Part shown: positions 24,705 to 59,566 of the stretch, one piece after another
Layout: every line of letters starts with the position of its first letter
Numbering within the stretch: position 1 is the first letter of the stretch
NCBI RefSeq assembly: GCF_964340395.1
Contig: NC_135553.1
Span: 12,762,501-12,826,500 of the forward strand
Reading direction: 5' to 3'
Source: Glandiceps talaboti
Lineage: Eukaryota > Hemichordata > Enteropneusta > Spengelidae
Length of the DNA: 64,000 nt
Notes under the pieces: model-generated
The model's database searches: none
What the model saw: the letters and a program-made list of their open reading frames with translations, nothing else
What the model was told of the DNA's origin: nothing
Made by a program: the position numbers and the translations under genes

Positions 24705-27700
24705 TCACATGGAAGGCAATGTCGTGTAAATTAACCCAAGGGTGTCAACAATTTCTAGAAAGGAATATAAACAGATGTTAAACACAAACATTTCAGATAC
24801 TTTCATAAAAAAGTCAGTCTACATGGTGGAACAACAAATAACAATGAATTACATATGAACAAAAAAAAGAAGATGATCATTGTAATTAGACATTTTTTTG
24901 CAATTTTCAACCTCAAATGCAAATTTCATATCTGCACACCCTAACTAATGTCCCAACCAAATACTAAGGCAAGCCCTTTTTATGTCAACTGGGACTTTGT
25001 AGGGGCCATATAAAAATTGCACACATTGAAGATTTCCAAGACACCATGTTCAAGTTATCTACCTTACGGTACATTCATTTTGCAATGACATGACTCTGAA
25101 CATTCCAGATGAGGAACAATGAGGGCTGAATCACATGGCCATACATGACAAATTTATTAAAATGTGCCTAAAATAACTCCTTTAGTTCCTGACTTGATTT
25201 ACAGCCAAGCTAGCAGTATACAGTTGCATTTGAAGTGTTTGTGAATGCCACCATTTTGGCTGCGGCAGAGCAAAATGATAGTTTTTGAAGGTATATTTAC
25301 TCAACTATTGTTACCCACATTTCTCATGCGGATAAAAACAGTGTTTCCGATAATACGGCCTCTGAAAATAGTGTAGGTAGGTTGGGAGTTTTATTTTATT
25401 TTATCTTTCTAATTGCTTTTAACGTTGCAAAATCAAATGAAATGTCATTCAGAATAACCCTGCTTGATAGTTTGATGAAGTATGTACAGACATCACTGGG
25501 GAATGAAAACAGACATATATGAAGGTCAAGACTAAGAATTTCTTATCGTTTTATTTTTAAATGTTTACATAATGTTTAAGGTCAGTGGTAGGGTCGGTCG
25601 GGTTATCAGAAATACACTTTTTTAGAAAAGTATCCAGGATTGGACGGTGATACTGTAATGGAAAAACTCACCACCAAAGTTAGGAGGTCTCAAGAGTTCA
25701 TTATGTGACCGACATCTATCAATCAAATTGCAAAGATCAGGTGGGCATGTACAGTCACTGGGTATTGGCTCCATCTTCTTCTTGTTTACCACATAGTCAT
25801 CAATCTGTTTATCAGTCATTCCTTTACAAAAAATACAAGAAAAAAAAAGTTGATATATGTTCCATTTGTTAAAAGTATTTCTTCATCCATCCTAAAGTTG
25901 TTAATAAGGAAAAATAGGTAAAATGACATTCTGCATTCTCACTATTTTGACACTTTCATTTAAGACATCAGATAAGTTTGATTTCTTCCACTGTGAGTTT
26001 GTGTTCATGCCAAAAAGTTATAGACATACAGTATTGTAAGCCCTCATTGATGGAAATGTCTGAATGTGTACTTTATATCTGAACAATCATCTTTGTGGTA
26101 CAAGTATACTGTGCTGCTACATAAACCAAAACACATTACTCGTATGGGAGTGCATCTATGCTCTTTAAAGGAGAATGCCACTAGCAAATAAACGTATTTC
26201 ATAAAATTGGGTTCTGGAGAGCCATTTCTTGGTTTCTCATTGTAGACACCGTGGTGAAAAAGATATACAATTTGGTTTTTCTTGGCAATCGAGTGAAATT
26301 TATGTAATGTGAAATCCATGAAATGACCATCCATAACCCCAAGTATATGGAAATACCTTTTATTTGCTGGAGTGTCATCCCATTTTAAGGACAAACCATA
26401 GTTTTGTTACAAGACAATGTAAATAATGAATTATTAATGTGTCTGTGTATGTATATTGTGAGTCAGAGTTAAACACCAGACTTATGTATATATTCCAGTT
26501 ATGTACAAAGTGAAGTGTACATTCATACTTTAAGTTAAAGGGAATGAAAGATGAGGCTGATTTCACCCTCGCTGCATTTCTTAAACTTAGAAATACAGTT
26601 CATTGCATGGCATCTCTAAAAGAGACCTATGAAATTTGCACATTTTGGTTCAGTAGTGAGCTACTGGATATTGCAGCATCATGGGAAGTAAACATTGTTT
26701 GGAGCTTCTTTTTATTCACACAGCTGACTCCAAATTATGGCATTGTTCCAAGATATATGATCATAGCTCATAACTTTATTTATTTCCCATGCTTACTCCT
26801 AGCATCCTGCAGGTCTTTTATGAACCAATTTTGACGAAGTCAAGTTTTGGTGCTCAATTTTTTTTTTCAAGGCTTTGCGATTCAGAGACAGTAGCAACAA
26901 TTTTTCTGGGCCTCCTAAAATAAGAAGTTATGCAAAGACAAAATCAGCATCACATTACCATTTCAACATTTAATATTGGGAACAGTCAGATAGGCAGCCA
27001 GACAGACAAGTTACAGAGAGACATAAACATGCATGGACAGAAAGACCAAAGTGACACGCTGTAGTATCTTCCTTTGGGAGATGAAAAAATTGATGGCTGA
27101 TACATGTATTAATGGTGTACATTTGAGGTGAAATGTGATGAAATACCTTCATATGGAGTCTTGAATGTGGCAATTTCCCACATAACGATGCCATACCTAT
27201 AGAAAATTGAAAATGTCATCAGTTAATATGGGCATTTTGTGATATCATTAAGTTAATTATTGGTGGAGTGAAATTCTTCCTACAACTCTAATATGACAAC
27301 GCCAACAAATTTGACTGCAGCAGAGACTGGCCACCTTTGAAAGTATAATACTCTGGCTTACGATTTTCACAAATGGTATATACATTGTACAAGTAGTAGG
27401 TGAAAGGTGCACTATCATATTTAGTGTGTTTCTATGATTATGGAGATGATATGCTATCTATCTAAGTAGACTTAATGTAAATAGTCTTAAATGTTATGAT
27501 TATCATCTTTAAAAGCAAAATTAGGAATTATAACGTAACTACAGTGTAGATGTATTTGCTGGTTTGTGCTATGACAATCATACACATCATATTCAAAGTT
27601 ATATATCATACAATCATTAGAATTAATCCAAGAAATTAGGAGTGTAGGTCGAAACTCGGATTTTCACGTTTTTGCGATCTTCAGTCGTCTGAAGATTGCA

Positions 27701-30700
27701 AGTGTGAAACTCTGAGTTACGATTTATGACCTCCTAATTAATAGGGAACTTGCAAACCCGCCATGTTGAATATTGCATCATGGGAAATGTGATAATAAAT
27801 GCTAATCAATTAGTATTATGAACAATATTGTTATATTGTTTGTAACCACGAATGATCAATTCATAGTCACCCTGACCATTGTGGGAGGTTTATTTTATCA
27901 GTAGTTCCAGATTAGGTAATACGATAACCTCAGATAATCCCATAGTCCTTTGCGTCTGAGCATGCTGTCTGGATTGCAAGTTCCCTATTGGATTAAGTCA
28001 AAATGCTCTTTTACTAATATTGCATTGAACACTGTTCTCTCAAGTGAGATGCATCTATCAATACCACAATTATTGTGTATTTTTATTCACTTTCATTCTT
28101 AGAATTCTTAACTATAAAGAGAGAGACAAAATTACTTACGAGTATACTTCACTTCTCTCATTATACTTAAGATGAATGCCACTGGGCTGCAGATGTTCAG
28201 GTGCTATGTAAGTTAAATTTGTTTTTTTAGAACTACTGCTGTGTCGAGCTGCTGAACTCTTTGTCAAGCAAAAACGAACATCAGAAATCTGCAATACAAC
28301 AAATACAATGGAAATACAGCATTTAGCCATCTTCTTCTAAAATTATTTACATCAAGTTTTCAAAGTATTTTGTGGACAAATTTTATCTTATGAAATCAGC
28401 AAATTGTGACTGTTTGCCAATCAACCAACCAACCAATCAATCAATGAATCAAAAATAGCTAGAAAGTACCTGAATCCAGTACACACTACTGATCAAAGTT
28501 GTTGAACAAGAAATACCCAGTAGAGGTATTTAAAATGCCCTTGCATAAAGTCTTAATATCTTTCCTGAATTTATCAAACATGAGAGTACGGCGTATTCAA
28601 AAAAAGGTAGTCTGTTCCATGTGGGGGTGGGGGGCATGTGAAAATGTGCAATCACTGTGAGATTCCATTGAGGCTAATGGGGTATATTAACCCCGTAGCA
28701 ATCACTGATGTTACTGTGTCTTCAACTTTGATGTGTGACAGTCTCAATGAACAGTCTAAACAAATCATTGCCAGTTGTCAAATTCTACAGTTCAAAGTAG
28801 CAGACATGGTTTGATCACTGGTGTAGATGCTCACATCGTCACAAACCACGGCCTGTTTTACGGCAACGTTCTTAACGAGCCTCCCACTTAAAATTTATTT
28901 CGAAGTGTAGTGGTAGAAATAATAACTCTGGTTTGCGAGAATGAGATGCTCAATGACATACATACATGCACCTCTGTCAGCAAAGAAAACAAAAAAATCT
29001 TTAAGTAAAAATGAAGAACAAAATTTATCTAAAAACGTATTTTTAGTGACAGCTACTGAAATAAAATTATGTTACAAAAGTCCTGAAGCTTGATCATCAC
29101 ATTTTTCTCAAAAGTAAACTTACCTTGACATGCAAGTCTTCATTGACAAGAAAGGTCACACTTGAAACACATCTATGTAACATTGGTGGTTCTCCATTAT
29201 GAATACGGAATAGTCCACTTGCTCCTTCAAGAGCCATTCGTATTTGAAGTCTGACGTTCAGATTGTGCTTTTTATGGTCAAGCACTTCTCTCAATGTCCA
29301 TGGCATATATTCCATGATATGAAGGAATTTATCTGAAAATTAAAGAAAAATAATTTTACATTGGTGTAATGCTACATTACATCTACCTTAGGGACAATCA
29401 GATTGTCACGCAAGCTCAATAAACGAACTTCGTTCATTTATGGGGGAGGGGTCTGGCACCAAAGCGATTGCTGAACTTCATTTTTGCACTTCTAACCAAA
29501 TTTTGAAAACTTTCATGCCTTCAATGATAACAAGTTCTGTATTTAATACTGAGACAATTATAAGTTAATTCAAATTTATTGATGTAAATGTGATATAAAG
29601 TGTTGGGTCTTGGGTTAGTATTTGTGTTTATACCACGTTTTAAAATCTGACCAACTGTAGGGATGGGATCCTACAATAGTTACTATGGTTTATACCACAT
29701 GTAAACATGTGAATGTTGCACTAGTGAACCTATTTAGGGGGAGGGGGAGGGGGAGGGGGAGGGAGATGGGGTTTCGGCTTAAATGAACTTCTTTAATTTA
29801 AATGTAAATGCACGTTTTTTTCAATTAAATGAACTTCGTTCTTTTATTGAGCTTGTGTGAAATTGTGCGATCATCCCTTACACAAGCTGAGTTGAACACG
29901 TCTGAACAAAATAATATGGGATTTAGATGCAGGTTAATTTACATGTACATCACAAAAAACATGCATTTACATCATGGCTTTTGTGATGCTCAATGTACCA
30001 GTCTAAATGTTCAAAATCACCATTATTTTTCATGGTTTTCATAAAATATGATTGTGCAGGTACAATTATGTCCAAACATTTTTCTTCACTCAGCAGGAAA
30101 AGAACCCATAAAATTAACTACTCTAATAATCCTGCAATGTGAATGTTTGATGTAACATGCTCATGGCAGAAAACAAGGTGACCCTGGCTTCGTATAAATG
30201 TAATAATATACTGTTTTTATACATCTTGCTGTGCTCTTGTAAACAAATGATACATGGTGATACAACATTAATACCAAATGAAGGGAACTGTGACAATCTG
30301 ATTACACAAATTTCACTTGATCTGGATGTCAGTGACAGCTTGAGATTGCAATTTGTTAAAACCGTAACAGGCATGCATGTTTCATTTACCTGGCTCTGTA
30401 CAGATTCCAAATAGTCTAATGACATTCATAGCTTCTAATTTTTTCAGGTTCTCAGCCTCTTTTCTTAGGCTTAACTTCAGTTTCTCATTTGAGCCACTGT
30501 AGCAAGAAAGACCAGCATTAAAATACAGTTATTTATATGAAATCTGCAAAAAACAAACTATCTTGAATAGTGACTGAGTTATGGGAAATGTAGTGTTAGT
30601 CAATAAAAACAAACAGGTATTTAACAATGGGGCTTATAGTTTATGGGCAATCACACAAAGTCACACGGGGGGGGGGGGGGGGGGGGGGCTCGAGGCGGTC

Positions 30701-33700
30701 TGGCATCAATGAGATTGCTGAACTTCATGTTCACACCTCTAACCAAGTTTCAAAAACTTTCATGCCTTTATGATAAAAACTTCTGTATTTACTACTAAGA
30801 TGTTGATAAGGAGATAAAACTTTACTGCCAATGCGAGATAATAAACAGTGCTGGGTTTACAATAGTATTTTGATGTGTTTATAACCGTAAGCAGGTTCAT
30901 AAGGCTTAAAGTTCATGTTTACCCTCATGTTTTTATATTGCATCGATCGTAGTGGTGTGACCGCTACAATTTTCATCATGGTTCACATCATATATGAACA
31001 TGCCATGTCGCACTTGTAAATGCTCGCTGGGGGTTTGGGGGGGGGGGGGGGGGGTTTGGGGTTGTCTAAATGAACAATGTTCGTTTATTGAGCTTGTGTG
31101 ACATTGTGCAATTGTCAATGTATATAAACAATGCCAAAAAGCAAAATGGAAAATTGGGTTGGTCTCAACACAATTCAACTACAGAATTCTAGACGGTATG
31201 ACTATCATCATAGGGTCAGTAAACACAAATTAATTTACTTACATCTTTGGAATATCGAACATCTTTACTGCTACAACATCAGATGTTGTCTTATAAACTG
31301 CTTTATATGTAGTTGAAGAATCCCCCTCTCCAATGACCTCTTTGATGCTCAGTTCACTGCTATTGATGTATTTCAAGTCATTGCGTGGTTGAACAATAAT
31401 GCTGCCTCGCTCTATTGATATAATGGAAAGAATAGCAAGTTGGTTATTCCAAAGAATATTACTGATTGGATAATCCAACTACTTAGAACAAAATGACTTG
31501 TCATTTGGTTGAAATCTTCACAGTATGTGCAAAATCCAGGGTAAAGTATATGCTAGTATGGTACAGATACTGCTTAAATACAAAGATTGATACAATACAA
31601 ATATTGTTTGATACTTTACAAATGCTTTTTGATATGGCATGAATATAGTTTTATATGGAACAGACATCACTGCATGAAAGTGTAGCATTTCGGGATCTCA
31701 GAGTCTGTATACATGATGGTCACACAGTGGAATTGCCAAAAATCCAGAAATGCCGCATTTCTGTTGTATGACCGTCATGTATACGGAACGAGAAACACCA
31801 CTTTTTATGCAGTGTATATATATATGTAATAAGGTACAGATACTGTTTGATATGCCATGGAATTATTGTATGATAAGGTACAGATACTACTTGTTAAGTA
31901 TCCAATTGGTACTATTTGATATGGTACATATATGGTCAGATACGGTAGAGAAACTATTTGGTATGGTAGAGATACTTGACAGTAGGGATACATTTGTACC
32001 TGTGTAACATGGTACAGATACTGCCCTATGCCTTGTTAAAGACCTTGCGTCATACAACTGTTTTAGATTGATGCTGTTAACTATATCTTTCAGTTGCTGT
32101 ATTTGGTGAAATTTACTGTAATGTTAAAAGTTTAGTTAGTATAATTTCGTAAGATTTTTTGTTAGGCCAGATGATGAAATAGGAGCAGTGAAAGTAAGAT
32201 ATTTGTTGAGTTTTAATGTAGCAGACTTAGTAAGATTTTTGTTGAACCAGATGACGACAAATTGTTTCTTCTCATCTGATTAAACATCATTGCTTGCCAG
32301 TGTTAATATTGATATTTGTATCAAACTTACTTTCTGCTTCTCTCCTTTGGGCTAAAGCTGCTGCAATTTCACCATATATGCCAGTTAGATTTGATATGGA
32401 TTCTGCCATTCTTTCATTTTCTATGTGTAGCTCTTGAAATCCCGAGTCAACCTCCTCTCTTAGAATGGTTTGGCCTGTAAACAAAGCGAAAGTACAGTCT
32501 GTGTATAAGAGTATGACAGAACCCCATGGTGTGCGAGTGCAAGTGTGGCATACTTGGGGCATTTTCATGAGTTCTTGTAATGTTCTCGGCAGCAGTACTT
32601 TCACAAGCTTAGCAAGTGAAAGTACAGCGGAAAACACTGCAAGCACAAATGCAAATACCCCTGAGTACCCACACTGACATGAGGTTCTGTTATTATTACA
32701 ATGTACATATGTTTATCCAAAACAACAAATTTCCATAAAAAAATGACACTGCAATCACGCGCACTCATGTAGAACGAATGATAGCATCTTCATTTGCATA
32801 TCATTTGCATGCAGGTATGCAATAATGTTTTCGGTTTTGCACTGCAGTGCAAATACCTCGTGTATGCGTGTATATCGGTGCAAGTAATCTCTGGTACATA
32901 TGTAATTACTAGTAATACTGTCCTATAACAGTTCAACACATAACTGTTTTCCATCCTTTCACTATTGGCTTACTAATTATAAGATCACATCACCTTACTG
33001 ATATGAACTACTTCTTCATAGTGATAAAAACGTGTATACAGACGTCCTAGTTATTTTCTATTAGTGATAGAGAGACTGTGCACTATGGCACTAGTACTAG
33101 AACAGGAGCCCTATGAAGTTGCTATAGTCTGCAGTTGCCAGAAGCAGCTTGAACTTGAATTTGAAAGATTTACATCTATAAATCAAGCAATCACTGTCAA
33201 GAACACATACTTTATGAAAAGACCTTTTATATTTCGGAGTGGGAACTTCCCATTTAATACTGACTAGCTATAATACTGACTAGTACTAGAACAGGAGCCC
33301 TATGAAGTTGCTATAGTCACCTTCAGCAAACATTTCAAACAACCCAGTCCTGATTCCCCCCCCCCCGTAATTACTGAAGGCTCCCTTACCACTGGAAGTT
33401 TAATGAGACTTTAATATATCAGTCATTGAATGACTCACACATACATATTTATGTTTATAAAAATACCAGTTTTGAGTTCAATAGCAAAGAATTGTGTGTC
33501 TACACCATGTTATCAATGGCAAGTTTTCTAACTTTGGGCTCCACCCCTTCAAGTGTTTCAACTTTGACCAGTTACTATCAGTTACCTCTCCTGATATCTT
33601 CAACCATTTCTTGAAATGACTTCCAATCATTCTTTTCATCCTCGATATCTTGTTGAATTTTCGTCGTTTTATCAAACATTTGATCGATGGTACTCTTCAT

Positions 33701-34060
33701 AGTCGCATTCAGTCCCAAGGTCAAAGCTGGAACTAACTGATCAAGGCGAACGTTGATATCGTCAAAACGAGATTTTATTTCCTCTCTTTTCCATATTTTC
33801 CGGACAAAATGAATACTCTTGAACTCAGCGATGAAAGTTTTGGAAGACTTTAAACACTTCAGAAGATCTGCCAATGCTTTGCGATATACTTCCTGGTCGT
33901 TGGCATTCAAGTCTCTGACATGCTCGACGGGTTTAACCAGACTTTCAATCCTCCTTTTCAACCTTTTGCAACGGGTCTTGTTCGATCTCACCTCTTCTAC
34001 TATCTTATAGATTTCTAAGGCAACTGTCAAGACACTTTGTACGATTTCAAGAGCCGCCAT
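24705..34060 (-). CDS. MLKL: MLKL-like necroptosis executor pseudokinase, 9 coding exons, 500 aa
   Basis: Joined exons (minus strand) are 34060-33586, 32474-32331, 31411-31243, 30496-30390, 29332-29124, 28288-28140, 27196-27147, 25821-25672 and 24754-24705. All have GT-AG borders and matching phases, and total 501 codons with the stop. Residues 1 to about 125 form an amphipathic helical bundle with a Lys/Arg-rich second helix (TRCKRLKRR), as in the MLKL membrane-permeabilising domain. Residues 160-205 resemble the brace. The kinase-like domain runs from about 225 to 500: glycine loop GEGDSS (third Gly lost), VAVK with Lys256, and helix-C Glu276. HRD is changed to HRC (351-353), the catalytic-loop Asn is replaced by Thr358, and DFG is replaced by DVR (371-373); APE is kept (397-399). 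A Ser-rich activation loop (SSSSKK) could be phosphorylated. In vertebrates MLKL is activated by RIPK3 and breaches the plasma membrane; that function here is inferred. Human MLKL has 471 residues. Confidence 0.93.
25349..25562 (+). repeat. Interspersed repeat (family C) in MLKL intron 8
   Basis: The region starting gataatacggcctctgaaaa is homologous to 43059-43292, in the same orientation. Both share a ttattttatttt run, an aaatgtca-cagaata segment and an acagaca segment before aaggtcaag or gggtcaag. Ends and class are undetermined. Confidence 0.6.
27634..27736. repeat. Imperfect fold-back repeat of about 100 bp in MLKL intron 6
   Basis: The arm ggtcgaaactcggattttcac to gcgatcttcag faces ctgaagattgcaagtgtgaaactctgagttac across a 4-nt loop (tcgt), with a few mismatches. 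It looks like a small fold-back element. Confidence 0.6.
27740..27989. mobile_element. Small MITE with 15-bp perfect terminal inverted repeats
   Basis: aatagggaacttgca at 27740-27754 and its exact reverse complement at 27975-27989 enclose about 220 bp of non-coding sequence, directly after the fold-back at 27634. No clear target duplication was identified. It lies in MLKL intron 6. Confidence 0.6.
29391..29877. mobile_element. TTA-flanked MITE (family B, copy 1) in MLKL intron 4
   Basis: Terminal inverted repeats of about 45 bp include gcaagctcaataaacgaac at the left and an inverted, slightly diverged copy at the right. TTA is present on both sides (29388-29390 and 29878-29880). The interior holds a ggggga run. 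The layout fits a PIF/Harbinger-type non-autonomous element. Confidence 0.75.
30645..31110. mobile_element. MITE family B, copy 2, in MLKL intron 3
   Basis: Homologous to 29391-29877: it shares gattgctgaacttcat and ctaacca-gtttcaaaaactttcatgcc segments, and the right end has cgtttattgagcttgtgtga. It contains G runs of about 23 (30667-30689) and 20 nt. The left terminal repeat is eroded, so the boundaries are approximate. Confidence 0.65.
31557..32030. repeat. Diverged tandem repeat around ggtacagatactg in MLKL intron 2
   Basis: The phrase tggtacagatactgttt, or a close variant, recurs at about 31557, 31832, 31877, 31924 and 32010, mixed with gatatggta units. It is a degenerate minisatellite interrupted near 31704-31783 by an imperfect inverted repeat (gtatacatgatggtc / gaccgtcatgtatac). 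Confidence 0.55.
33280..33388. repeat. 39-nt direct repeat and MITE remnant in MLKL intron 1
   Basis: The 39 nt at 33280-33318 also occur at 33091-33129. They are followed by a stub ending gtaattactgaaggctccc-TTA (33367-33388). That end is identical to the right end of family A (copy 1 at 9441-9462), so this is an internally deleted copy. Confidence 0.65.
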
Positions 34061-35127
34061 GCTTGACTTCGACTGTGTATCCTATAGTATGACTTATGAC
34101 CTCGGTGTGACGCACATCCGGGTACTCCGCTAAAGGCTCGCAAAAACTTTGAATATTGTAGAAATTTCTACAAATGTCTTTCGTAGCTCGCTTTGGAAGC
34201 AAATGGAAGAGGACTTGTGATAATCAATATAGGGACAAATTATAAGAGTTCGACGGCATGTTGGGCCTACTACAACTCGAGTCTCGATCATAATTTCATA
34301 TCCCAACACCACAGTCGCTTGTGAACTAATATTCCATTCCAGGATGGTGATATTCTAGTCTACGATGATCGTAATACACAACAATGACGTTACTATTGGT
34401 ATTTACGATATTCATAAAATGCCAGTACCGTTACTGGTGACTTGTGTTGAGGGTCATGTCACTGATCTAGACCTGCATCGATGTGCACGGTCTGCAAGCA
34501 GGACTACACGCACTGTGGTGAGTGCATGGATACTGCATACTGGTACGGTGAGCAGCTCCTAGCTAGGCAGCGTTGCCATAAAAAGTCGTCTGCCACTACT
34601 TTCAGTCTAAGGCAAAGGATAAAATCGATGCGAAGAGTTTGGGGCACTGCCCGGGGGTGGAGTGGAGTGGAGTTGGGTGGATGGGGGTATACGGCCGGTA
34701 GGGTGCATGGGACGTAACTCTTCAGGAACTCGTTCGGAAGGTGAACTATATGTGCATTGTGGGATCGTGACCCGACATGAACCGGGAAGTTACCTGCAAC
34801 TTCGTCAGTTGTTGTGCGAAGATCACCGATGTACAGAGTAGGCCTACTTATGCGGTAAATGGATGTTTCTTATAATTTTCCTTTTTTCTTCAAATGCAAT
34901 AACCAGCAGATTGTCCCTTTGTGTGGTTTTGCATGAATACATCGCTGTTGAGATTACTGACGGGCCAAAGAGTTGTTGACTGTTGTTGTTTGCGACGACC
35001 AAACGATATTGTCCCGAGATATTGTTACATCAAAAGCCCAGGTCAAATGCATCCGCTATCACAAATCACTGTAGCTGCAATAATTGTAGCGGGAGTTTCG
35101 ATTTTGCGGTGTTTTACTCCTCCTTTG

Positions 35128-35190
35128 AGCTTTTTTCGTTCCGTTTTTCAAATTAAAACAATGTTGAACAACCGCGGAACGAAAAAAGCT
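35128..35190. repeat. Hairpin with 16-bp perfect stem
   Basis: agcttttttcgttccg and its exact reverse complement are separated by 31 nt. It lies in the region between the MLKL-like and TRADD-like genes. It could be a small element end; no T-tract or termination role is implied. Confidence 0.7.
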
Positions 35191-35254
35191 AAACATTAAA
35201 TAAGATAATTAAACCACCAAAAAACCACCTCAAAATCTAAACTATTAAACGCTA

Positions 35255-35299
<45 letters not shown>

Positions 35300-35574
35300 C
35301 GAGAATCACTGCAATGATCACATGTACGTTTGCGAATATATGATGACAATACATTCTTCTAGACGTGTGAATACTTTGACGAACATAACTGGATGTCACT
35401 TTCAAAAGATTATAGGGCTGGCTGCACTTACAGAGATATTTAATATTAAATAGTACATATTCATTCAGTATCTGAGTTCAGACATTCGTAAATCTACTTT
35501 TAAATGTTTAATTAAGGTTAAAATACTGTACCCTTCATCACATTGTGTATTATATATATTTTTTTGTTATTTTG

Positions 35575-35691
35575 TATGTTATGTTATGTTATGTTATGTT
35601 ATGTTATGTTATGTTAAGTTATGTTGTTGACAGTTGTGTTATGTTATGTTATGTCATGTTATGTTATGTTATGTTATGTTATGTTATTTTC
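35575..35691. repeat. (TGTTA)n pentanucleotide microsatellite
   Basis: Two runs of TGTTA units are separated by tgttgacagttgtg. Confidence 0.9.
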
Positions 35692-36212
35692 AGTATTCAC
35701 GTCTTTTTTATTTGCCACAGAGTATGTATTTTTGTATTTATAGTATAGAAAAAAATAAAATAATGAGTTACTGGGTTGTAACTTCAACATGTAGTATTAT
35801 TTTGTGATAACTTAAAGAATGGCATGTAGTCTTTTTAGAAAGTTGAAAGTCCGCTGTTAACAGAAGTGAAAGGGTATATGTGCTATTTGATATTCCCTTG
35901 ACTGAGTAAAATACAAAGCTATCTGGGGTATATAAGTATAGGGTAATATCAAATTATTGTTCAGATAAACTTTATATCAGTTAGTTATAAACTATCATAT
36001 TCTTCATGCTAGTAAACTTAGTACAGAGGTTAAATGTTTCTGTGTAAATATTATGCAGATATAGATGTCAAATCCATAATGCACACCATACATGTATGAT
36101 GTGTTACAGTGAGTGTGGAAAAAACTCTAACAATTAACTCTAAAATGTCTTTCCATCAGTTAGGATTGGTCCTGAGTGATAGTTCTGTCATACTGCATGT
36201 GAGCAGAAACTA

Positions 36213-39200
36213 ATGGTGATGGCTACCAAAACACATAAAAGTCATTATGAATCTAATGAAACTGGTTATTCAGGTAAGCATACTATCTCATGTCAGATTT
36301 CTTAGTGCATCCACTTTACGGACTCTGCCAAAACAAAGTGGGGGGGGGGGAGGGGGTGTTGACTTGCTTGGGTTCTATCTATTCTGTATTCATCTGTATG
36401 TGCATACATTCATCCTCCATGCACAGCCATCATTGACATGCACTATCAGATTTCACTCAAACTTGATACAAAAGGTTATGCACTACACTTATTCTATGCT
36501 AACAAAATGAAAATCAGAATTTATATACTTTTACCAATGGGAACTACAATCATCATATGGTCATTCATTAATTTTGCTGCTAGCTAGTTAGATTTTCAAA
36601 AGCCAAATGATGTATATTTCCTGAAAAATCAACCACAGTGCAGTACAAAAAATATTAGTACAATCCAACTCTTAAGTAATTCTTCAAATGGAAGAAAAAT
36701 AATACAAATATAACAAATTTTGGTCCTTGAATATGATGTTTTAACAAATAACTTGATTAGTTTTGTATATCTGCTTTATATTCATAGTTGAAGAGAGTAC
36801 ACAATGGAAAGGTTCTTTGAGACTAGTAATCCACTCTGAGAAGACACAGAAAGATCTTGACAGTGGTGATGCTAGTAAAAGAAGAGATATTTTCACTAAA
36901 ATAAAGGCTGTTTTTGAAAAAGATGGATCAGACCCAGAGGTGTATGATGTTGATATTAGAAATGATAGAGTGGTCATTGAATTAGTATTCAAGTCTGAGG
37001 ATTGCTGTTTTACTTTTTTGAAGGTTGGTAATTAGTATTTGTTTTGATATCTAACTAGAAATTATAACCTAATATCATGTCAATTTCTGAGAATAAGTTT
37101 ACATTCAAGCAATTAATTATCCATTTATGACAGACATAGTAGACAATTTAGTTGACATTCCATTTTGTGCACACTTTGTTGCAAAATCCTCTTCTCTCTT
37201 ACAGTCCCATAGGCTTCCCTAAATTGTCTTTATGTGTACCTTAACCAAGCAGCTAGCAGCTGATACAATGCCCATGTTTGCTGCTCCTGCATTGGCTACA
37301 TGAGCAATGCACTGGTATGACATGGCAATTTAGCCAGCAAGACTGTTATGCTTAGTTTATATTGTTTATATCGAATTTATAATTTGGAATCTATTGTCAT
37401 CTAACTACAAGTATTTAGGTTAAACTTGACTTACTGTGAAGTTATTTACTTCGTGAGGTCAACAATAGTAACTGAAGCAACCATGTGTTGTTATGCTGTT
37501 GACATAGACATGTGGATATTATAAATATCATAAGGCAAAAATAATAATAAATTAAAATTTCTTTACAGAATCATTTTACTCAGTGTACACACAAGAGAGT
37601 ACTGCAGCATGCTCTATATAATGATATTCACGAATGTCAAATCTTTGTTGGAGACAAATACATTAAGCCAGCTGATTATGAAAAGAACATATCTTCAGCA
37701 GTCTGCCTGGTCAACCAAGTAAGTCATCTTTATATCATATCAAATATGAAATATTCAACACCAGTAAGGAACAATTCTAACTTGGATATTCTATATTACC
37801 CCAATATGAGTATGTGTGAATGGGGATATTAGGTGGTTATTTGTTCAACCTGGATAATAACATGAAGCAAATGTAAAAATGCATGATACGGAGCTTTCTA
37901 TTTTTATGACCCACTGATTAAATGTTTACTAAGTGTGTACTGTTATTGTAATTATGATTATAATTTAAGTAGAGAGCTAAAACATAAATTAATGCAGACA
38001 ATAGCAATTTGATAATGGGTGCTATTTGCTCTCTCATAGGACTTTAAATTGTTATTAAATCCATTATCTGTGTAACATCTTATGACTTACTCCAAGTGTT
38101 TTTATTACCATGGAGTAACCATTGACATCACATTTCAAACTCACTATATATATAATTGTATGTCACAGGCAATAGCTATAGTGACTCTAGAGAATGACAG
38201 GCTCTGTGTTAGTAGACCAAGTATGGAGCCTTTAATAATGACATGGGGAGGGGCAGGGGAAAGGGAGTCACTTTTTACAAATTGGTTCATGGCAAGAGGT
38301 GGGGGTATTTCCTCTCATGACTGACGCGTTTCTGCTGCACTTTGAATTGCTATTCTCATGATGCTGTTTCATATTTGTTGTGTCTGTGTGTCACTATGGT
38401 TCTGAAAGTATGGCTGTATAGAACCTGAAACCACTTATGCAAATATCCAGAATACAACACATTTGCATTTACACCCATGTCACAGTGTCGGCTGGTTCTA
38501 TCATGATTGTGTAATATATTTTCAGAATCCACTTCCCAACAAAAATTCTGAAATGATAGATGATGTAACTGGTAAGATGGATAACCTCAGCATAACAGAT
38601 GCAGCTGAATCTTGTGAACAAAGTTGTGAAAGTACATCAACTCAAAGTCAAGAAATTGACTACAGTAAGTATTTGTACAACCATTTGGACATTTTTTGTC
38701 AAGAACATTAACAATTCTGTGATGTTAATTACTTTAATAAAAAAACAACCAATCACAGTATGATTATTGTGAAGTTGTTTACTTGTTCTTAAAGTTCTCA
38801 TAGACAGTGTACATAGTGGCTACAGGATTATACGATTACTTCTTTAAGATGGATCTGTCATATACATACTAGACTAGTGTACCATTTATTCATAGAGTTT
38901 GCACACAAACATCAAACCAGTATACACATTACAATGTGCAACAAGAAGGCAGTGAAGAAAAGTTTTTTTTTTAACCAACAGACTATTATGAAAAAATGAT
39001 TACAAAGTTTCAGAACTTAGTAGTTTTTGTTGTGGACATGCCTTTACATGCACAGTCAACAACAGTATTTGTGGCTGAGTGGTTAAACCACTGGCTTCTA
39101 ATGGCTGTGATTTGAGCCCTAGCGTGGATTTTAGTAAATCTACCAGGCTAATTAAGTAAGTGACTCTACTCAACAGTAGTTTTTCCCTAGGCTTCTAATT

Positions 39201-39627
39201 TTCTCACACAGTAGCACTGAACCCAAAGTCTTCAAATTTACAGGTGTTATTCACCTGTGTTCCTGATTTCATTGAAGTCAAAGATTTCTATAGAAATACA
39301 TATTAGATCTTATTATCTTTGTGTTCTCCAGATAATTTGCAAAGACCCATCACCAGAAATCAGCAGCTTGAATTCCAAAGAATCTTAGGTGGTGATAAGT
39401 GGCACGATGTTGCAAAACGGTTAAATGCCCTTGGTTGTAAGTTTCTAACTGATGCCGATATTGACACCATAGATGTCGACTGCCGAGACACGCCTGAGAA
39501 AACTTATAAAATGCTGAGGAAGTACATTGACTCTGAGGGAAAAGATGCAACTCTTGGTCGCCTTGTAAAGGCAATGGTTCTTTGTGGTTTTAAAACCCAA
39601 GCAGAAGAACTTATTGCCGTTGAATAA
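36213..39627 (+). CDS. TRADD: TRADD-like TNF-receptor adaptor, 5 coding exons, 293 aa
   Basis: Exons 36213-36273, 36788-37023, 37569-37718, 38526-38664 and 39332-39627 join in phase with GT-AG borders (294 codons with the stop). Residues about 24-150 follow the TRADD N-domain pattern: a W-x-G-S start (WKGSLRLVI), GSDPEVYDVDI before the next strand, VVIELVFKSE, FLK, and a closing region ending in CLVNQ. A polar linker rich in Ser, Glu and Asn (150-195) follows. The C-terminal death domain (about 200-291) has the signature W-x-x-V-A-x-x-L, then ML-x-x-Y and ATL-x-x-LV-x-A-x-x-x-x-G. Vertebrate TRADD (312 aa in human) recruits TRAF2 through the N domain and RIPK1/FADD through the death domain at TNFR1. 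Binding partners here are inferred. An upstream untranslated exon is possible. Another death-domain adaptor is less likely because both domains match in order and size. Confidence 0.88.
39066..39200 (+). mobile_element. tRNA-derived SINE fragment in TRADD intron 4
   Basis: tggctgagtggttaaaccac is an excellent pol III A box in a Ser/Leu-tRNA-like context, and gatttgagccct is a degenerate B box about 35 nt on. A non-coding tail follows. A complete cloverleaf is not evident, so it is not called as a tRNA gene. Confidence 0.5.
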
Positions 39628-45499: not shown

Positions 45500-47142
45500 G
45501 TCTCTGTGGACACAATATCTCAAAAACTACTGCATCGACTCTAATGAAACATCTAATGAATATTAATTAGTCGTTTGCATAATTGAAGGTTTCTACTAAT
45601 TAGGCATATACCAATTTCAATATAATTTGGTACCATTCGTTAAACATCACAACATTAATAAATGCAAAGTTGATAAACACAGATATACTCGGGGGGGGGG
45701 GGGGGGGTTAAAGACCAGATTCAAATATAAATATACTAACAGAAAGGCCAACTCTGATAAAAGGTGTATTTATGTTTTTGGTCTAAAAGTACCGTGCAAA
45801 TGATGTTTTAACACCAAATACGGCCACCATTCAGTGAGAAAGGATATCAACAGCAACGTGATGCATGCGTATATATCTTCTTCTGTATCACTTTCGGACT
45901 AGAAATTGACAAAACTTAAATATGGCAAAATGTACTAATAGCCCAATGTACAAGAAATTGCTTGATTTTGGCAACTGAATCAGGATCATGGGAAATGTTC
46001 CCAAAAGCTACGTATTAAGGCACTTCGCTGCGGTAGTCAGCTTTCCACAAATGGAGTACATATAAGAGTCCGGTCATTATTTTTAACGTTTTTGTGTTCT
46101 TTGGAGTAATGTTCTAACACCAATCTCCAATGTTGTCCGAGGTCGTTGGTTGCATAGATATTCCAACTATTTAAGTACGTGCTAACATGAGTAATATTAT
46201 CTGTTCAGTGACCAACACCCCTGTTAGCAGAGTAGACTGCTCAACGGCACCAGATGGTCTGTATCCACATCCGACGGATTGTACCAAGTATATCAATTGT
46301 GGATCTGGTCTTGAATACGTATCTTCTTGTCAGACTGGTTTACTCTTTAACCCGAGACAGCTTAACTGTGATTGGCCACAAAATGTACCAGAGTGTACAG
46401 AAACACGGTCCTCATCAACAATGGTCAAGTTGGAGCAATCTTCTGCAAGCATAGTTGTCGCACATTCGTCAGGTAAATGTTCCACCCCCACTTCTCTCTT
46501 AGACATGTTTCTCACCACCCCCTGTCACTCCCTACCCCCATATGTCACAGCTTACTCTTGAGCTCCACTCTTTCTCTCCCCACTTAGTCTCCGTCCGTCT
46601 GTCTGTCTTGTAGCATGTGATCAGTATATATATACGTGCCTTGCATGATATACTTTCTACCTTACCTTTTCAGTGACGAACATCCCAGTCAGTGAAGTAT
46701 ATTGTTCCACTGCACGAACAGATCTGTATCCACGTGTACATCCAACAGATTGTACCAGGTACATCAACTGTGGATCTGGTCAGGAACACGTCTCTCCTTG
46801 TCCGCCTGGGAAAGTCTTTAACCCAAGACAACGTTACTGTGATTGGCCAGAAAACGTACCTGAGTGTGACGAAATACGGTCTTCAACAACAAATGTTAGA
46901 GTGACTTTGGGACAGACTACCAAACTAACAAGTGCAAGCATCCCTGTCTCAAATTCGCCCTGTAAATATTATACTTTACAGCTTTCTCTGTATTTTTTTC
47001 TGTGACATATTCTTGAGACTCATCACGTATCTGTGCATGTCACTTGATTTATTGACCCCCCCCCCTGTCTACTTTGACTTTGTGTGTGTGACTCTTTGTA
47101 TAAGTACGTACTCTGTCTGTCTATGTGAGTCTGTATCTCCGA

Positions 47143-47200
<58 letters not shown>

Positions 47201-48264
47201 TTCTCTCTGTGATTGTGATTGTGTACATGCTGAGTTTGTTCCGTTTAATTTATTCTCAATTTTTACTACGTGGTGGCTCCATATGGGATAATATGGCAAG
47301 CGACAGAGGGAGGGGTATCACGTGGAAATTACTACAAGTGACGTACATACATCCAGGCATGCCATGCACGAAATCTCTAAGACGCACGTGTGCTGTTTTT
47401 ATTTTAATTTTTGTGTGCACTGTTACTTGTGCTTCAGCTGAAAACTGTGAATCTGCAACTTGAAATTCAAGTACGTGCATGGCAAAAACTTCATTTTGAC
47501 TTGAGTCACAGCTACAGAGTTCGTGTACACGGGAAAGAGTTAACGTTTTCCATAAATTCAAAGATCTTCAAACAGCGCAACGTATACTAGGTGTATACCA
47601 GTCGCTACTTGTGATATGACTTTTCTGTTATAAATTGTAAACTGTCTATAATTATATCAAGAAATATTGTGAAACATTCTTGGAAATCAAATAGTGTTAT
47701 TATAAGAGTTTCTGCCAGATAAACACCAAGGAACTTGGTGAATACTGTCAATATGAAAGAATCTTGCCAATGCTTATTATTTAATACTTGCTAACATTGG
47801 TATTGTGATCTTATCCTTACGTTTTCAGTAACCAACACCCCCGTAAGCAGAGTAGACTGCTCAACAGCACCAGATAGTTTGTATCCATTCCCAGCGGATT
47901 GTACCAAGTATATCAATTGCGGATCTGGTCTGGAACACGTCTCTCCTTGTCCGCCTGGGAAAGTCTTTAACCCAAGACAACGTTACTGTGATTGGCCAGA
48001 AAACGTACCTGAGTGTGACGAAATACGGTCTTCAACAACAAATGTTAGAGTGACACTGGGACAGACTGCCAAACTAACAAGTGCAAGCATCCCTGTCTCA
48101 AATTCGCCCTGTAAATATTACACTTCACGACTTTCTCTTTAATTGTATTTTTTCTGACATATTCTTAAGAGTCATCACGTTCTGTGCATGTCTCTTGATT
48201 TTGTTGATCCCCCTCTGTCTACCTTGACTTTGTGTGTGACTCTTTGTATAAGTACTCTGTCCGA

Positions 48265-48308
<44 letters not shown>

Positions 48309-49307
48309 GTGATTGTGGAATGGAAGGTGTACATGCCGAGTTTATTCAGTTTAATTTATTCTCAAGTTTTACTTCGTGGTTGCTCCATATATATGGGATA
48401 ATAGGACAAGCGATAGGGGAGGGGTGTCACGTCGAAATTACTACAAATAACGTACGTATACACATCCAGGTATGGTATGCACGAAATCCCTAAGACGTGT
48501 GCTGTTTTTATTTTAATATAACATTTTTGTGTAGAATGTACTATCTTGTGCTTCAACTGAAAACTGTGTGAATATGCAACCTGAAATTCAAGTACGTGGC
48601 CAATACAATTTTGGTGTCATAAACTTTACTATATACTAGTATTAATTCTCATTTTGACTTGAGTCACAGCTACAGAGTTCGTGTACACAGGAAAGAGTTA
48701 ACGTTTTCCATAAATTCAAAGATCTTCAAACAGCGCAACGTATACTAGCTGTACACCAGTCGCTACTTGTGATATGACTTGTCTATTATAAATTGTAAAC
48801 TGTCTATAATTATATCAAGAAATATTGTGCAATATTCTTTGAAATCAAATAGTGTTATTATAAGAGTTTTTGCCAGATAAACACCAAGGAACTTGGTGAT
48901 TTCTGTCAATATGAAAGAATCTTGCCAATGCTTATTATTTAATACTTGCTAACATTGGTATTGTGATCTTAAAGCTTATTCTTACGTTTTCAGTAACCAA
49001 CACCCCCGTAAGCAGAGTAGACTGTTCAACAGCACCAGATGGTTTGTATCCATTCCCAGTGGATTGTACCAAGTATATCAATTGTGGATCTGGTCTGGAA
49101 CACATCTCTCCTTGTCAGTCTGGGTTACTCTTTAACCCGAGACAGCTTTACTGTGATTGGCCACGAAATGTACCTGAGTGTAAAGCAACACGGTCGTCAT
49201 CAACAACGGTCAAGTTGGAGCAATCTACTACAAGGATACCTGTCACACATTCGCCAGGTAAATCACTAACCCCCCCCCCCCTATTTCGTTTGTGTTTGTG
49301 CATATAC

Positions 49308-49392
<85 letters not shown>

Positions 49393-52061
49393 TGTGAATA
49401 ATTTAGTAAATTGGAGGACATCTAACCCAATTTCTAAACACATTCTTTTGAAAATGCTGTACACAGCAGCAGGATATGTATGTATACCAGCCAGTGACTT
49501 ACAAAGCTCTCTTGAATAACAGTCGGTGTATGTATACCACAGTAACTGTATAAGATATTTAATTGTGCTATTACTGATGTCATTTCTTTACATGTGATGC
49601 AAATGCAACTGACTTCAGCGTTGGCATTAATTACACCAGTTATCACTTCTGGGGTTACAATATCAATAATTATCATCATTGGTGCAAGCATTGGAATAAT
49701 TGTGGTATGTCGAAAAAAGTTGCATGCCAACAAAAATGGTAATGTTGTGATTATGACGTATGGCGGTGGTGCAGGACACCAGATACACATTGAAGACCCG
49801 GAAGTTCCTGAAAACCATCAAACAAGTGAGTGAAGATGAGAATTATTTTTTTAGAGTTCTTCAAAATTGACTTTACTAAAAAGGGCAAATGAATGGTAAA
49901 TTTCACAGGGAAAAGGAATCACTAACTTGTCGAAGAGAATTTTATATGGGCGCTATGTACAATGATAGTAATAAACTTCCTTGCAGTGAATGGTTGAAAA
50001 TACCTTAACCACCTTACTTATGTCAACTTGCACAATTGAGGAATATATTGAACAATTTCTCCATCATCAGTCTGTCTCTATAAATCATTTTTCCTACATG
50101 CAATATCCGATTTTAAACACACCTGGTACACAGATGATATATCATTCTGAACGTCACTATGTTATGGAAATTTGACCAGATGGCTACCATAGTGTGGTTA
50201 AAAATCATTACTGACTGCATTACTCAAAAACTATAATACATAGAGACATCACTCAGTGCCTACCCTTACATTATAAGGAACAAGCTTTATTTAAAGACCT
50301 TGACCTTTGCTCTTCCTTTTACCTTTATGGTCAATATTAAAAATGGAGGCATTTGTTGCATATTGCAGATACTTTCTAGGATTTATTTGTTTCCACCATT
50401 TAACATTTACAAAAAAATCATGTCACCATTTTGCCACATGGTAGTAATGTATTGGAGAGGGAGGGAGTGTGTCTTGTATGAAAACTTGTTCTGGTAGAAA
50501 GACGGTGTTACTTTTCTAGAATAGCCAAAGAACCCAATATAATTTCTCATAAATCTAATGTTCATGTGTTCACACTCAGTCCTGTTCGACTTAGTGTTAG
50601 CAATGCAGTAATTTGGCAAAATTCTCAAATGTACATATATTGGGGCACCTTCAGTAATTACAAGGGGGAAGGCTGGGGGAAATCAAGCCCAGTCTGTGGC
50701 ATAAAACGTGCCCCCCCCCACCTTCCTCGTCCATTGTGCTAAAACGTGTCCCCCTCCCCCTGCCTTCCTTGTCCATTGTGCTAAAATGTGCCCCCCCCAC
50801 CTTCCTCGTCCTTTGGGCTAAAATATGACCCCCCCCCCATCCATTGTGCTAAAATGTGACCTGACCTCAATGCCCTTTCCCTAAAACATGACCCTTCCCG
50901 ATGATTAAAATATTTCAGTGAAAAACATTTTTAACACCACCTGCCTGTGGCGTATAGTTGTTCGAACTCAAGATTAGTAGTAAGGAGGTCCTGGGTTCAA
51001 ATCCTAGAGAATGGGAATTTTTCTCTCTAGATTTCTCTGTAGTAAGATCCCATCACATTAGTAGTTTTGTTGTTTGCCACTGTAATTGCATCACAGTCAG
51101 TGTGTGTTTGTGTTTTGATCTGTTGCCTAAGCTGAAATCAAGAACTACCAAAGATTAATTGCACATGCAACTGACAACCTCAGGACCGAGGTCAACATCT
51201 CCACTCCACCACATTATCTTGCAATGCTGTTCCACTTTACTACTGTGCACCTGCTCCTCTCCCCATACCACAACTAAGAGTTAATTCACTGCATTCCAAT
51301 GATATGCCATGATATTCCTTTACAATGGTGGCAGTGGTGGGATGTGGTAGCAGTAGGATGTGGAACTGGTGGCAGCAGTGGGATCATGCCAGAGTCATAA
51401 AATAATGCAAAGTTAGATAAAAAATTGTGTCAATTGAATGTAAATTATACCCCTTTCCCTGGCCCTTCTATTTGCAATTACTGAAGGTCAGGAGCTCCCT
51501 TATGTTAGTATGTTATTATAGGGATATACCACGTATTTTCCTTTCTTTAGCCAGGGAAAATATAAGTGACATATAAATGCATTGGCCCTGTCACTTCCTA
51601 TCTTTGACTTTAAGTGACAAAAATATGTCAGGAATATTTTTTGGTCGAATGAAGAAAGTATTGGAGAATAAAATAATTATGTTGTAAGCATATATATTTA
51701 TGAAAATCAAGAAAATAATTTGTGTCATTTTGTGTTTAAAGATGCAGAGCTGCAAGACCATCTCTATGAAGTACCTTATGATCAACAGGACTCTGAAAAT
51801 GATGTAGAATTCGAGACATATGATGATATTGAGGTAAATGAATGGCCAGAAGCAGAACTGTGCCAAGTGCAAACTGGGGTTGATTATATAAGTGTATGTC
51901 TTAACAGTGAATGGGATGATTTGGAACAGTCCCAATGCAAAGATCTGGCTGACAACACATGTCATGAAGAACCCCACGATCAACAGAACTTTGGCAATGA
52001 AGTAGAGTTCGAGCCTTATGAGGCTTTGCCACTACCTGAAAGCACAGAAGTAGAACTGTGA
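44973..52061 (+). CDS. Membrane receptor-like protein with four chitin-binding type-2 domains and a tyrosine-rich tail, 7 exons, 566 aa
   Basis: Exons 44973-45048, 46209-46472, 46674-46961, 47829-48110, 48994-49257, 49619-49825 and 51742-52061 are all phase 1 and join to 567 codons with the stop. Exon 1 encodes a hydrophobic signal peptide (LPYLLLLW core). Exons 2-5 each encode one six-cysteine peritrophin-A/CBM14 domain (D-C-S-T, DCT-x-YINC, C-x-x-G, CDWP, PEC) with a Ser/Thr-rich linker. Exon 6 encodes a membrane helix (about 399-421) and a basic stop-transfer CRKK. The tail carries YEVP (Tyr469), YDDI (Tyr487), VDYISV (Tyr509, fits the ITIM consensus) and YEAL (Tyr553). The predicted role is cell-surface binding of chitin-like glycans with signalling through SH2 proteins; the ligand and signalling are inferred. 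The all-phase-1 structure is typical of shuffled extracellular modules. Exon 1 is the least certain part. Confidence 0.8.
45438..45640 (+). repeat. (CTGT)n microsatellite with interspersed-repeat tail, in intron 1
   Basis: About 15 CTGT units lead into acacaatatctcaaaaactactg and then ataatttggtaccatt, related to the repeat at 20584. It sits in the first intron of the chitin-binding receptor gene. Confidence 0.75.
46674..48993 (+). repeat. Tandem duplication of a 1.16-kb exon-plus-intron unit
   Basis: 46674-47828 (exon 3 plus its intron) and 47829-48993 (exon 4 plus its intron) are close copies. The introns match along most of their length: gtaaatatta start, CTGT microsatellites at about 47142 and 48262, gtcacagctacagagttcg, cagcgcaacgtatacta, and aacaccaaggaacttggtga. 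The duplication created one extra chitin-binding domain in frame. Confidence 0.85.
49311..49389. repeat. (AT)n dinucleotide microsatellite in intron 5
   Basis: A pure AT run of about 39 units between the last chitin-binding exon and the transmembrane exon. Confidence 0.95.
50642..51499. mobile_element. TTA-type inverted-repeat element (family A, copy 2) in intron 6
   Basis: Homologous end to end with 8616-9459. The left end is accttcagtaattaca and the right end is gcaattactgaagg, followed by ggagctccc-TTA. It contains the tRNA-like core (B box gggttcaaatccta at about 50994) and the shared acaacctcaggaccgaggtc stretch. Near its left end, a unit ending ttgtgctaaaa-gtg is tandemly repeated about four times (50700-50865). 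The left TTA is mutated. Confidence 0.7.
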
Positions 52062-55377: not shown

Positions 55378-55430
55378 GACTATGAACTTCACTTGTTGAA
55401 GACTGTAGCCCTCTTTTAGTTGAATCAAGT

Positions 55431-58452: not shown

Positions 58453-58972
58453 ACATCCCAATAATAGACTCATCTAGATAACAACGTACCGCATTAATCA
58501 GCGTTCTATATTGTATTGCTCAACTTGGCCGACGGCCTATATGGAGTTTTCCTAGCCTTATCGATGTGTAGAATTTCACACACGGATGTAAACAACTGAC
58601 TTTCAAAATTCCGACCCTGATCAGTAAAAATCCTGAATAGACACCCGAAATGTGCGAAAAATTTGTTTACTGAAGCTTGAGCCATGGCTTCTGTGGTTTG
58701 TGAACTCAAAGGGATGCATTCAACCCATTTAGTGAATTGATCAACCATCATCAACACATATTCATGACCCCTAGCGGTCTTAGGTAGCAGTCCCAAAAAG
58801 TCAAGGTGTACCAGTTCCATGGGTGAACCTGCATGGTAGGAAGTCATAGGACACTTTGGGTGTTTCCTGGAACGTTCATTACGGTTACAAGCTGAACACT
58901 CTACCACAAAACGATGGACTGACTGCCTGAGACATGCCATACCAATAGAACCATTCTTTCATTTTCGCTTTA
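58453..58972 (-). pseudogene. Ty3/Gypsy-type integrase core, broken
   Basis: The minus-strand frame encodes a zinc-finger CxxC (CSACN), then a retroviral-type integrase core with HLDFLG (first Asp), YVLMMVDQFTKW, and TDQGRNF (second Asp). The catalytic Glu region is lost: a small deletion shifts the frame right after YRPSA. A second frameshift lies near 58930, just upstream of the first CxxC. The remaining 3' part is truncated at about 58453. This is the right-hand continuation of the fragment at 62342-62515, from which it is separated by the hAT insertion. It is a dead relic; family-level assignment is to Metaviridae-like LTR retrotransposons. Confidence 0.8.
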
Positions 58973-59017
58973 GTACGAGCAGGGTTCTCCACAGACTTAA
59001 TCTTGTGGTGGACAATC

Positions 59018-59105
59018 ATTAATATTCATGAAGTAATTAATATTCATAACATCATTAATATTCATGATTTAATTAATATTCATGATTAATTAATGTTAAT
59101 GATTC
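59018..59105. repeat. Subterminal 18-bp repeats of the hAT element
   Basis: attaatattcatgaagta, attaatattcataacatc and attaatattcatgattta follow in exact 18-bp steps from 59018, with a degenerate fourth and fifth unit. They begin 37 bp from the transposon end. hAT elements often carry subterminal repeats that bind transposase; that role is inferred. Confidence 0.85.
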
Positions 59106-59566
59106 AACTTCTATGTTAATTTCAAACTGACACATTGTTTACTGATACACACCAGTGTTTATCAATGCACATACACAACACTACTTAAGTTCATACACTA
59201 CACAAACTTATGGTTTTATGGTTGATAATTTGTCTTGCTTTTCTACACAAGTTTATTTTAAAGACATTCTAGTAATTCTACTAATGTGCAGGATACAGTA
59301 CTGGTTTGAAATAAAAGGACTGATTAATAAAAAAAAATAATGCTCACAATTCAACTTCTATATGACTTCCAGTGCATATACACACACCACAGTATTGATT
59401 TGAAATGCAATGACTGATTAATAAAATAAATGACTGCTTAATAAAATAAATATCATGACTGACTGACTGACTGTAAATACTGGGTTAACTGTAAATGTTC
59501 AAAGTTACTGTTCAAATTTTAAAATTAAGTTCAAGTTCACCCTCCATCATTATCAGCTCAAGTTCA

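Follow-up and report, generated by a model that had tools for sequence, protein, structure and literature searches.

A head-to-head pair of MLKL and TRADD-type adaptor genes in the hemichordate Glandiceps talaboti

We analyzed a 64-kb window of the genome of Glandiceps talaboti (bases 12,762,501-12,826,500 of contig C6; assembly of 590 Mb in 47 contigs) that contains a gene for the necroptosis executor MLKL and a gene for a TRADD-type adaptor. Using gene models built by hand from the DNA, we found that the two genes lie head to head, with start codons 2,152 bp apart. The MLKL gene runs on the minus strand from 34060 down to 24705 (nine exons, 1,503 nt, 500 residues) and the TRADD-type gene on the plus strand from 36213 to 39627 (five exons, 882 nt, 293 residues), and both reading frames are open. 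The 12 splice junctions of the pair all have GT...AG and keep the reading frame, and each start codon has an in-frame stop no more than 90 bases upstream. Both hand-built proteins are identical to the NCBI models of G. talaboti, in which the minus-strand gene is named MLKL and the plus-strand gene is an "uncharacterized protein LOC144434895". An initial annotation, made from the sequence alone, had described two intron-bearing, divergent genes with 2.15 kb between their starts in an invertebrate; the rebuilt models confirm this layout, and the source is a hemichordate, an invertebrate deuterostome. We conclude that MLKL and a TRADD-type adaptor gene truly lie head to head in this species. The same annotation knew of no described pairing of this kind, and our literature search, whose coverage stopped short of subscription journals, likewise turned up in the text available to it neither an MLKL-TRADD gene pair nor a fusion of MLKL with a death domain.

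The MLKL protein was recognized by profile and by sequence search. Pfam placed MLKL_N at residues 8-147 (E = 5.2e-25; 88.1 bits, cut-off 27) and detected a kinase domain (2.1e-40). In a PDB sequence search, full-length MLKL (6lk5) aligned to residues 6-488 of 500 (2.6e-51), and among the best 60 of 1,699 matches the 11 top-ranked sequences were all MLKL. To read the pseudokinase motifs, we aligned the protein with four other hemichordate MLKL proteins (identity to the window MLKL: Ptychodera, 54%; the longer Saccoglossus protein, 51%). The window protein reads HRC and DVR, leaving neither HRD nor DFG intact, and it keeps the VAVK lysine. Across the aligned proteins the catalytic HRD aspartate is replaced by C, N or S, the DFG position reads DCG in Ptychodera and in the longer Saccoglossus protein, and the VAVK lysine is invariant. 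An AlphaFold2 model of the window MLKL was too poor to be used (mean predicted local distance difference test score, 53). Together, these matches and motifs bear out the layout first proposed for this gene, a four-helix bundle (4HB) plus a dead pseudokinase, and we regard its identity as solid.

The TRADD-type protein carries a death domain that was detected by Pfam (1.5e-8) and for which human TRADD was the best match in a PDB sequence search. The C-terminal death domain is closest to TRADD in all three copies considered here (the window copy, a copy on contig C8 and a tandem copy on C6), and the match was reciprocal among the 13 death domains that we compared (the genome yielded 148 matches). 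Searches with the N domain behaved differently. A PDB sequence search with the window N domain alone did not find TRADD-N, and the TRADD_N profile run over the whole genome gave a single match, on C14 (E = 5.28), missing the window domain. Because sequence searches for TRADD-N failed, we used fold comparison, in which TRADD-N was the best match to the predicted fold of the window N domain, with 15% identity to human TRADD-N in the structural alignment. Neither of two fold comparisons returned a structure labelled DEDD2 or NCOA6 among the best 50 matches listed, and the fold therefore does not fix the clade. Of the TRADD N domain plus death domain claimed initially, the death domain is thus supported by Pfam and by its best match, whereas the N domain is recognized by predicted fold and escapes the Pfam TRADD_N profile. 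When proteins were searched with the window TRADD, the sole match among 311 candidates (E up to 0.001) was the query, a result that says little because the C8 copy from the same genome was also unreturned. We have good confidence in the identity of this gene. Unrelated kinases or other death-domain proteins, the best hits that the initial annotation had named as grounds for rejecting its reading, were not what we found: the best matches were MLKL and TRADD.

We next consider the gap between the genes. Within 20-42 kb of the window, the ratio of observed to expected CpG (o/e) exceeded 0.6 solely in the 1-kb bins at 34-35 kb (0.90) and 35-36 kb (0.96); it was 0.37 over the MLKL gene (24705-33400) and 0.18 over the TRADD gene. 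In 400-bp windows, the CpG-rich block extends from 33.6 to ~35.4 kb, covers most of MLKL exon 1 and the MLKL side of the gap, and ends well short of TRADD exon 1. This lone block between depleted genes fits one candidate bidirectional promoter together with an unseen TRADD leader exon. Comparable CpG-rich windows occur at ~1.6-4.8, 11.4-19.6 and 56.8-61.6 kb and the 64-kb window as a whole has an o/e of 0.63, so the gap block is not unique. A scan of the gap for NF-kB (strict and loose), ISRE, STAT, AP-1, CRE, ETS and NRF1 sites found none; the chance expectation for NF-kB, ISRE, STAT and AP-1 was low (0.08 to 0.67 each), so this test has little power. TATA-like sites numbered 6, against 4.3 expected. 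The shared promoter suggested by the initial annotation is therefore compatible with the CpG-rich block, but similar blocks elsewhere in the window and the lack of an immune-factor consensus in the gap count against it.

Features of the MLKL-TRADD locus (window coordinates)
Feature	Position	Strand	Basis
MLKL exon 1: start codon and four-helix bundle (MLKL_N)	33586..34060	-	gene model, Pfam residues 8-147
MLKL exon 2: brace region	32331..32474	-	gene model, GT/AG splice sites
MLKL exon 3: pseudokinase N-lobe, glycine loop, VAVK lysine kept	31243..31411	-	gene model, alignment
MLKL exon 4: pseudokinase N-lobe	30390..30496	-	gene model, PDB sequence search
MLKL exon 5: catalytic loop, HRC replacing HRD	29124..29332	-	gene model, alignment
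MLKL exon 6: DVR replacing DFG, serine-rich activation loop	28140..28288	-	gene model, alignment
MLKL exon 7: pseudokinase C-lobe	27147..27196	-	gene model
MLKL exon 8: pseudokinase C-lobe	25672..25821	-	gene model
MLKL exon 9 and stop codon	24705..24754	-	gene model
Intergenic gap between start codons, 2,152 bp	34061..36212	none	gene models
CpG-rich block, candidate shared promoter	33601..35400	none	CpG o/e 0.75-1.56 in 400-bp windows
TRADD exon 1 and start codon	36213..36273	+	gene model
TRADD exon 2: TRADD-N fold, first part	36788..37023	+	gene model, predicted fold
TRADD exon 3: TRADD-N fold, second part	37569..37718	+	gene model, predicted fold
TRADD exon 4: linker	38526..38664	+	gene model
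TRADD exon 5: death domain and stop codon	39332..39627	+	gene model, Pfam, PDB search

Elsewhere in the window, four repeated exons on the plus strand (46175-49397) share a cysteine pattern that we presume to resemble that of chitin-binding peritrophin domains, and a possible membrane segment follows at 49546-49830. On the minus strand, a metallophosphoesterase-like gene (54055-55494) resembles ADPRM by eye, and mobile-element fragments (58506-63951) contain open reading frames (ORFs) that look integrase-like, hAT- or ZMYM-like transposase and PHD-finger. Across the 64-kb window, neither Rfam at gathering scores nor a tRNA scan gave a match.

A whole-genome search with the window protein located a second TRADD at C8:16,707,328-16,710,109, with four exons whose splice phases match those of the window gene and an overall identity of 37%. 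For its death domain the E value is 1.6e-12 against human TRADD and 3.8e-3 against RIPK1, and this copy scores closer to human TRADD than does the C6 copy. Counting this copy, TRADD-type sequence has three sites in the genome, the other two being on C6. On C8 (L041, C8:16702001-16712000), a frame-shifted TRADD death-domain fragment (5807-5924, plus strand) sits within the C8 TRADD gene, in the intron that follows its first modelled exon. On C6 (L018, C6:12838001-12848000), the tandem TRADD-like death-domain exon (3647-3940, plus strand) is 81% identical to the window copy; ahead of it lie two partial copies of the beginning of TRADD exon 2, one of which runs into a microsatellite, and a SAM-domain exon at 540-818.

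To place the two TRADD loci, we used CBFB, GLG1 and NOB1, which we take to be human 16q22-q23 neighbors. All three markers tested, each from 16q, are on C8 and none is on C6, and the genome-wide profile search gave no MLKL_N match on C8. An ancestral linkage, for which C6 was expected to match human 16q, was dropped when the three markers fell on C8 instead. Because the second TRADD and all three markers lie on C8, this contig appears to be the old home of TRADD, which supports TRADD orthology and speaks against an ancestral pair. We conclude that the C6 TRADD beside MLKL is probably a lineage-specific duplicate and not part of an ancient unit; the initial wording that this animal "keeps" adaptor and executor as one divergent unit implies an old unit, which these locations do not support.

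Searching the whole genome with MLKL_N gave eight matches, six of them over the cut-off. A death domain lies within 6 kb at three of these six loci, against a share of 0.275% for the genome as a whole; for random placement this gives P ~4e-7, a value to be read with a radius picked after the data had been seen, with the clustering of gene families and with the 148 death-domain matches as a lower bound. The other three loci are 13.8 kb, 0.99 Mb and 3.07 Mb from the nearest death-domain match. On C13, splicing a 4HB exon (19,961,884-19,961,497) to a death-domain exon (19,959,915-19,959,584) keeps the frame and gives an open model of 239 residues with MLKL_N (2.9e-18), a Death domain (1.5e-10) and no kinase. 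The death domain of this model is closest to CRADD (2.8e-9), and its 4HB reached MLKL chains only at 0.3 in a single-sequence search. A protein search with the model found none at E up to 10 among 628 candidates; within the length range of ~131 to ~418 residues that the search covered, the collection therefore holds no independent C13 gene model. Another such locus, at C18:18.78 Mb, lies ~11 kb away from a paralogue of MLKL that has pseudokinase exons. Its 4HB exon contains a single in-frame TGA and is followed by two brace-like exons, of which the second uses a GC donor, and then by a death-domain exon, all in compatible phases. Between the death domains of C13 and C18 there is hardly any resemblance (7 bits).

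The genome also contains RIPK1-like genes. A RHIM search gave four matches in the genome, and the same search responds in 1 of 14 control genomes. The best match (20.8 bits), the sole one over the cut-off, lies on C1 in a repeat-rich stretch; the third (18.6 bits) is at C8:7,559,466, between kinase exons and a death domain. There, kinase, RHIM-like core and death domain are ordered on the minus strand as separate exons. The kinase exons carry VAVK, HRD and DFG, which suggests an active-type kinase, and the best matches of one kinase exon, RIPK2, RIPK1 and RIPK4, are nearly tied. The death domain matches RIPK1 at 1.4e-11, ankyrin-3 at 1.3e-6 and TRADD at 6.4e-4. The core reads IQIGNQNYM at C8:7,559,466 (16.8 bits with Pfam RHIM in its own frame, below the cut-off of 20) and IQIGDGNTM at the same place in a tandem copy at C8:7.545 Mb. 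In C8:7.543-7.576 Mb (L030, L031, L032), kinase exons, a death domain and the IQIG core make up two tandem RIPK1-like genes. A further RHIM-like core, VQIGDNN, lies in an ORF (1333-1668, minus strand) of L029 (C4:5637412) and scores 15.4 bits in its own frame, below the cut-off. RIPK1 is cited as already reported from Hemichordata in a sea cucumber study that describes ambulacrarian RIPK1 without a RHIM (PMC11507063).

From these data, we lean modestly toward one overall explanation, a late TRADD duplicate beside MLKL combined with a TRADD-RIPK1-MLKL route. An old TRADD on C8 would have duplicated, with one copy landing 2.15 kb from MLKL on C6 and another, now partly decayed, ~40 kb beyond the pair. 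TRADD would link a death-domain receptor to RIPK1 by death-domain contacts, and RIPK1, clustered through its RHIM, would phosphorylate the serine-rich loop of MLKL. Phosphorylated MLKL would then free its four-helix bundle onto the membrane and cause rupture. The MLKL and TRADD genes may fire from one CpG-rich bidirectional promoter. This order, from TRADD through RIPK1 and MLKL phosphorylation to membrane rupture, appears to be the likeliest mechanism; we infer its steps, since each is taken from the vertebrate pathway. A bolder proposal, which we put forward only tentatively, is that necroptosis in G. talaboti is wired by death domains, through the MLKL-TRADD pair and the predicted pseudokinase-less 4HB-death domain proteins of C13 and C18, and that TRADD predates vertebrates. 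A receptor or adaptor complex would recruit these fusions directly, and clustering, not phosphorylation or cleavage, would open them, so that no RIPK3 would be needed.

Several observations weigh against the TRADD-RIPK1-MLKL explanation. Pfam TRADD_N (PF09034) detects neither the window copy nor the C8 copy (E up to 1 and up to 10), and a two-sequence profile of both N domains misses TRADD-N in the PDB. Kaur et al. 2021 describe for TRADD-N a tiny residue and a serine at the beta2-beta3 turn, occasionally substituted (PMC8195603); by eye, the turn reads RNDR in the window copy and GEDK in the C8 copy, and the serine is not evident. The C8 TRADD model lacks exon 1 and was unreturned by the protein search, and may therefore be unannotated or unexpressed. 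Taken alone, the C8 RHIM match is weak (E = 1.57), with the over-cut-off match elsewhere, and Pfam RHIM does not detect the core of the tandem RIPK1-like copy. No NF-kB, ISRE, STAT or AP-1 consensus is present in the gap. To our knowledge, the sole activation mechanism established for an invertebrate MLKL is caspase cleavage in a sea cucumber. In that animal, caspase-1 activates MLKL by cutting it after Asp17 of LVAD; phosphorylation, which was undetected, is not the trigger, and MLKL does not bind the animal's own RIPK3 homologue (PMC11932488); this echinoderm case shows that the final switch of MLKL can differ from phosphorylation.

If the same held in G. talaboti, MLKL would be activated by proteolytic cleavage and TRADD would serve a separate branch, NF-kB or caspase signaling. 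We consider this improbable, as VAD is absent from all four hemichordate MLKL proteins checked and no [LIVWY]xxD motif occurs in the window MLKL ahead of residue 104, although other cleavage sites are possible. Of comparably low probability is an old deuterostome adaptor-executor unit that stayed close in hemichordates and loosened in vertebrates. The genes are adjacent in G. talaboti and both are still on human 16q, TRADD at 16q22.1 (PMC5469829) and MLKL at 16q23.1 (PMC7195448), but the 16q markers point to C8, which has its own TRADD, nearer to the human protein, and no MLKL_N match. Somewhat less improbable, though still unlikely, is that the plus-strand protein belongs to another TRADD-N clade, of DEDD2 or NCOA6 type, to which a death domain was joined independently. 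The classic clade is described as vertebrate-only and DEDD2-clade proteins as expanded in hemichordates, with 22 copies (PMC8195603), and the silent Pfam profile and a turn serine that is not evident would fit such an origin. Against it, a TRADD-N domain followed by a C-terminal death domain is the order of TRADD, while DEDD2 has an N-terminal DED (PMC8195603); in addition, both copies have TRADD as the closest match of their death domain, reciprocally so among those compared, and one copy shares C8 with the human-16q markers.

The most serious competitor, which we nevertheless hold to be doubtful, is that the two genes are neighbors by accident, with the gap and perhaps a promoter in common but no joint function. 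Head-to-head gene pairs are common in animal genomes, TRADD-type sequence occurs at three places, and the scan of the gap gave no regulatory motif common to both genes. Accident does not readily account for a death domain within 6 kb of half the MLKL_N loci over the cut-off, nor for the compatible frames of MLKL_N and death domain at two of those three. On balance, we retain the late TRADD duplicate with a TRADD-RIPK1-MLKL route as our preferred explanation.

These genes bear on where the pathway arose. MLKL has been published from Hemichordata (Saccoglossus) and is present in echinoderms, hemichordates, amphioxus, tunicates and a rotifer; the Saccoglossus N-terminal domain is among those tested for activity, yet it is not named among the active ones (PMC11476962). 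Several MLKL copies have been noted in Hemichordata (PMC11932488). Kaur et al. 2021 describe the classic TRADD-N clade as confined to vertebrates (PMC8195603), and Kariyayama et al. 2024 place TRADD among vertebrate domain-shuffling genes, in a main text without hemichordates (PMC11788884). TRADD is reported as unfound in Paracentrotus and, as cited there, Strongylocentrotus (PMC6394757), and in Aplysia (PMC9334734); a Ciona study mentions TRADD- or FADD-like proteins in several animal groups (PMC10923776). RIPK3 is stated to be confined to vertebrates or craniates (PMC11507063, PMC11932488), although the latter paper also names a sea cucumber RIPK3. Here, a TRADD-type adaptor is found in an acorn worm, though TRADD has been described as a vertebrate specialty. 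MLKL, TRADD, RIPK1-like and candidate 4HB-death domain genes in one hemichordate would push the origin of this set before vertebrates. With the sea cucumber cleavage site missing from the hemichordate MLKL proteins checked, the G. talaboti set offers concrete genes and proteins for testing how MLKL is switched on outside vertebrates, before RIPK3.

In comparison with known systems, the window MLKL resembles other MLKL proteins in its four-helix bundle, brace region and pseudokinase, and in a best match that spans nearly all of its length; it differs in adjoining a TRADD gene, in reading HRC and DVR, and in belonging to a genome with five further MLKL_N loci over the cut-off. The adaptor resembles TRADD in having a TRADD-N fold followed by a C-terminal death domain best matched by human TRADD, and differs in its N domain, 15% identical to that of human TRADD, unseen by Pfam and without an evident turn serine, in its invertebrate host, and in its number, since two loci carry it and a tandem copy has partly decayed. 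The predicted C8 gene would resemble RIPK1 in bringing together an apparently active kinase, a core reading IQIG and a death domain whose closest match is RIPK1; unlike the RHIM-less ambulacrarian RIPK1 described previously (PMC11507063), it and its tandem copy have an IQIG core, one sub-cut-off and one undetected by Pfam. Finally, "all-in-one" fungal NLRs carry HeLo/4HB domains themselves (review, PMC12881547), and the C13 model is similar in placing a 4HB-type killing domain directly on a signaling partner, but that partner is an animal death domain, without an NLR or a pseudokinase.

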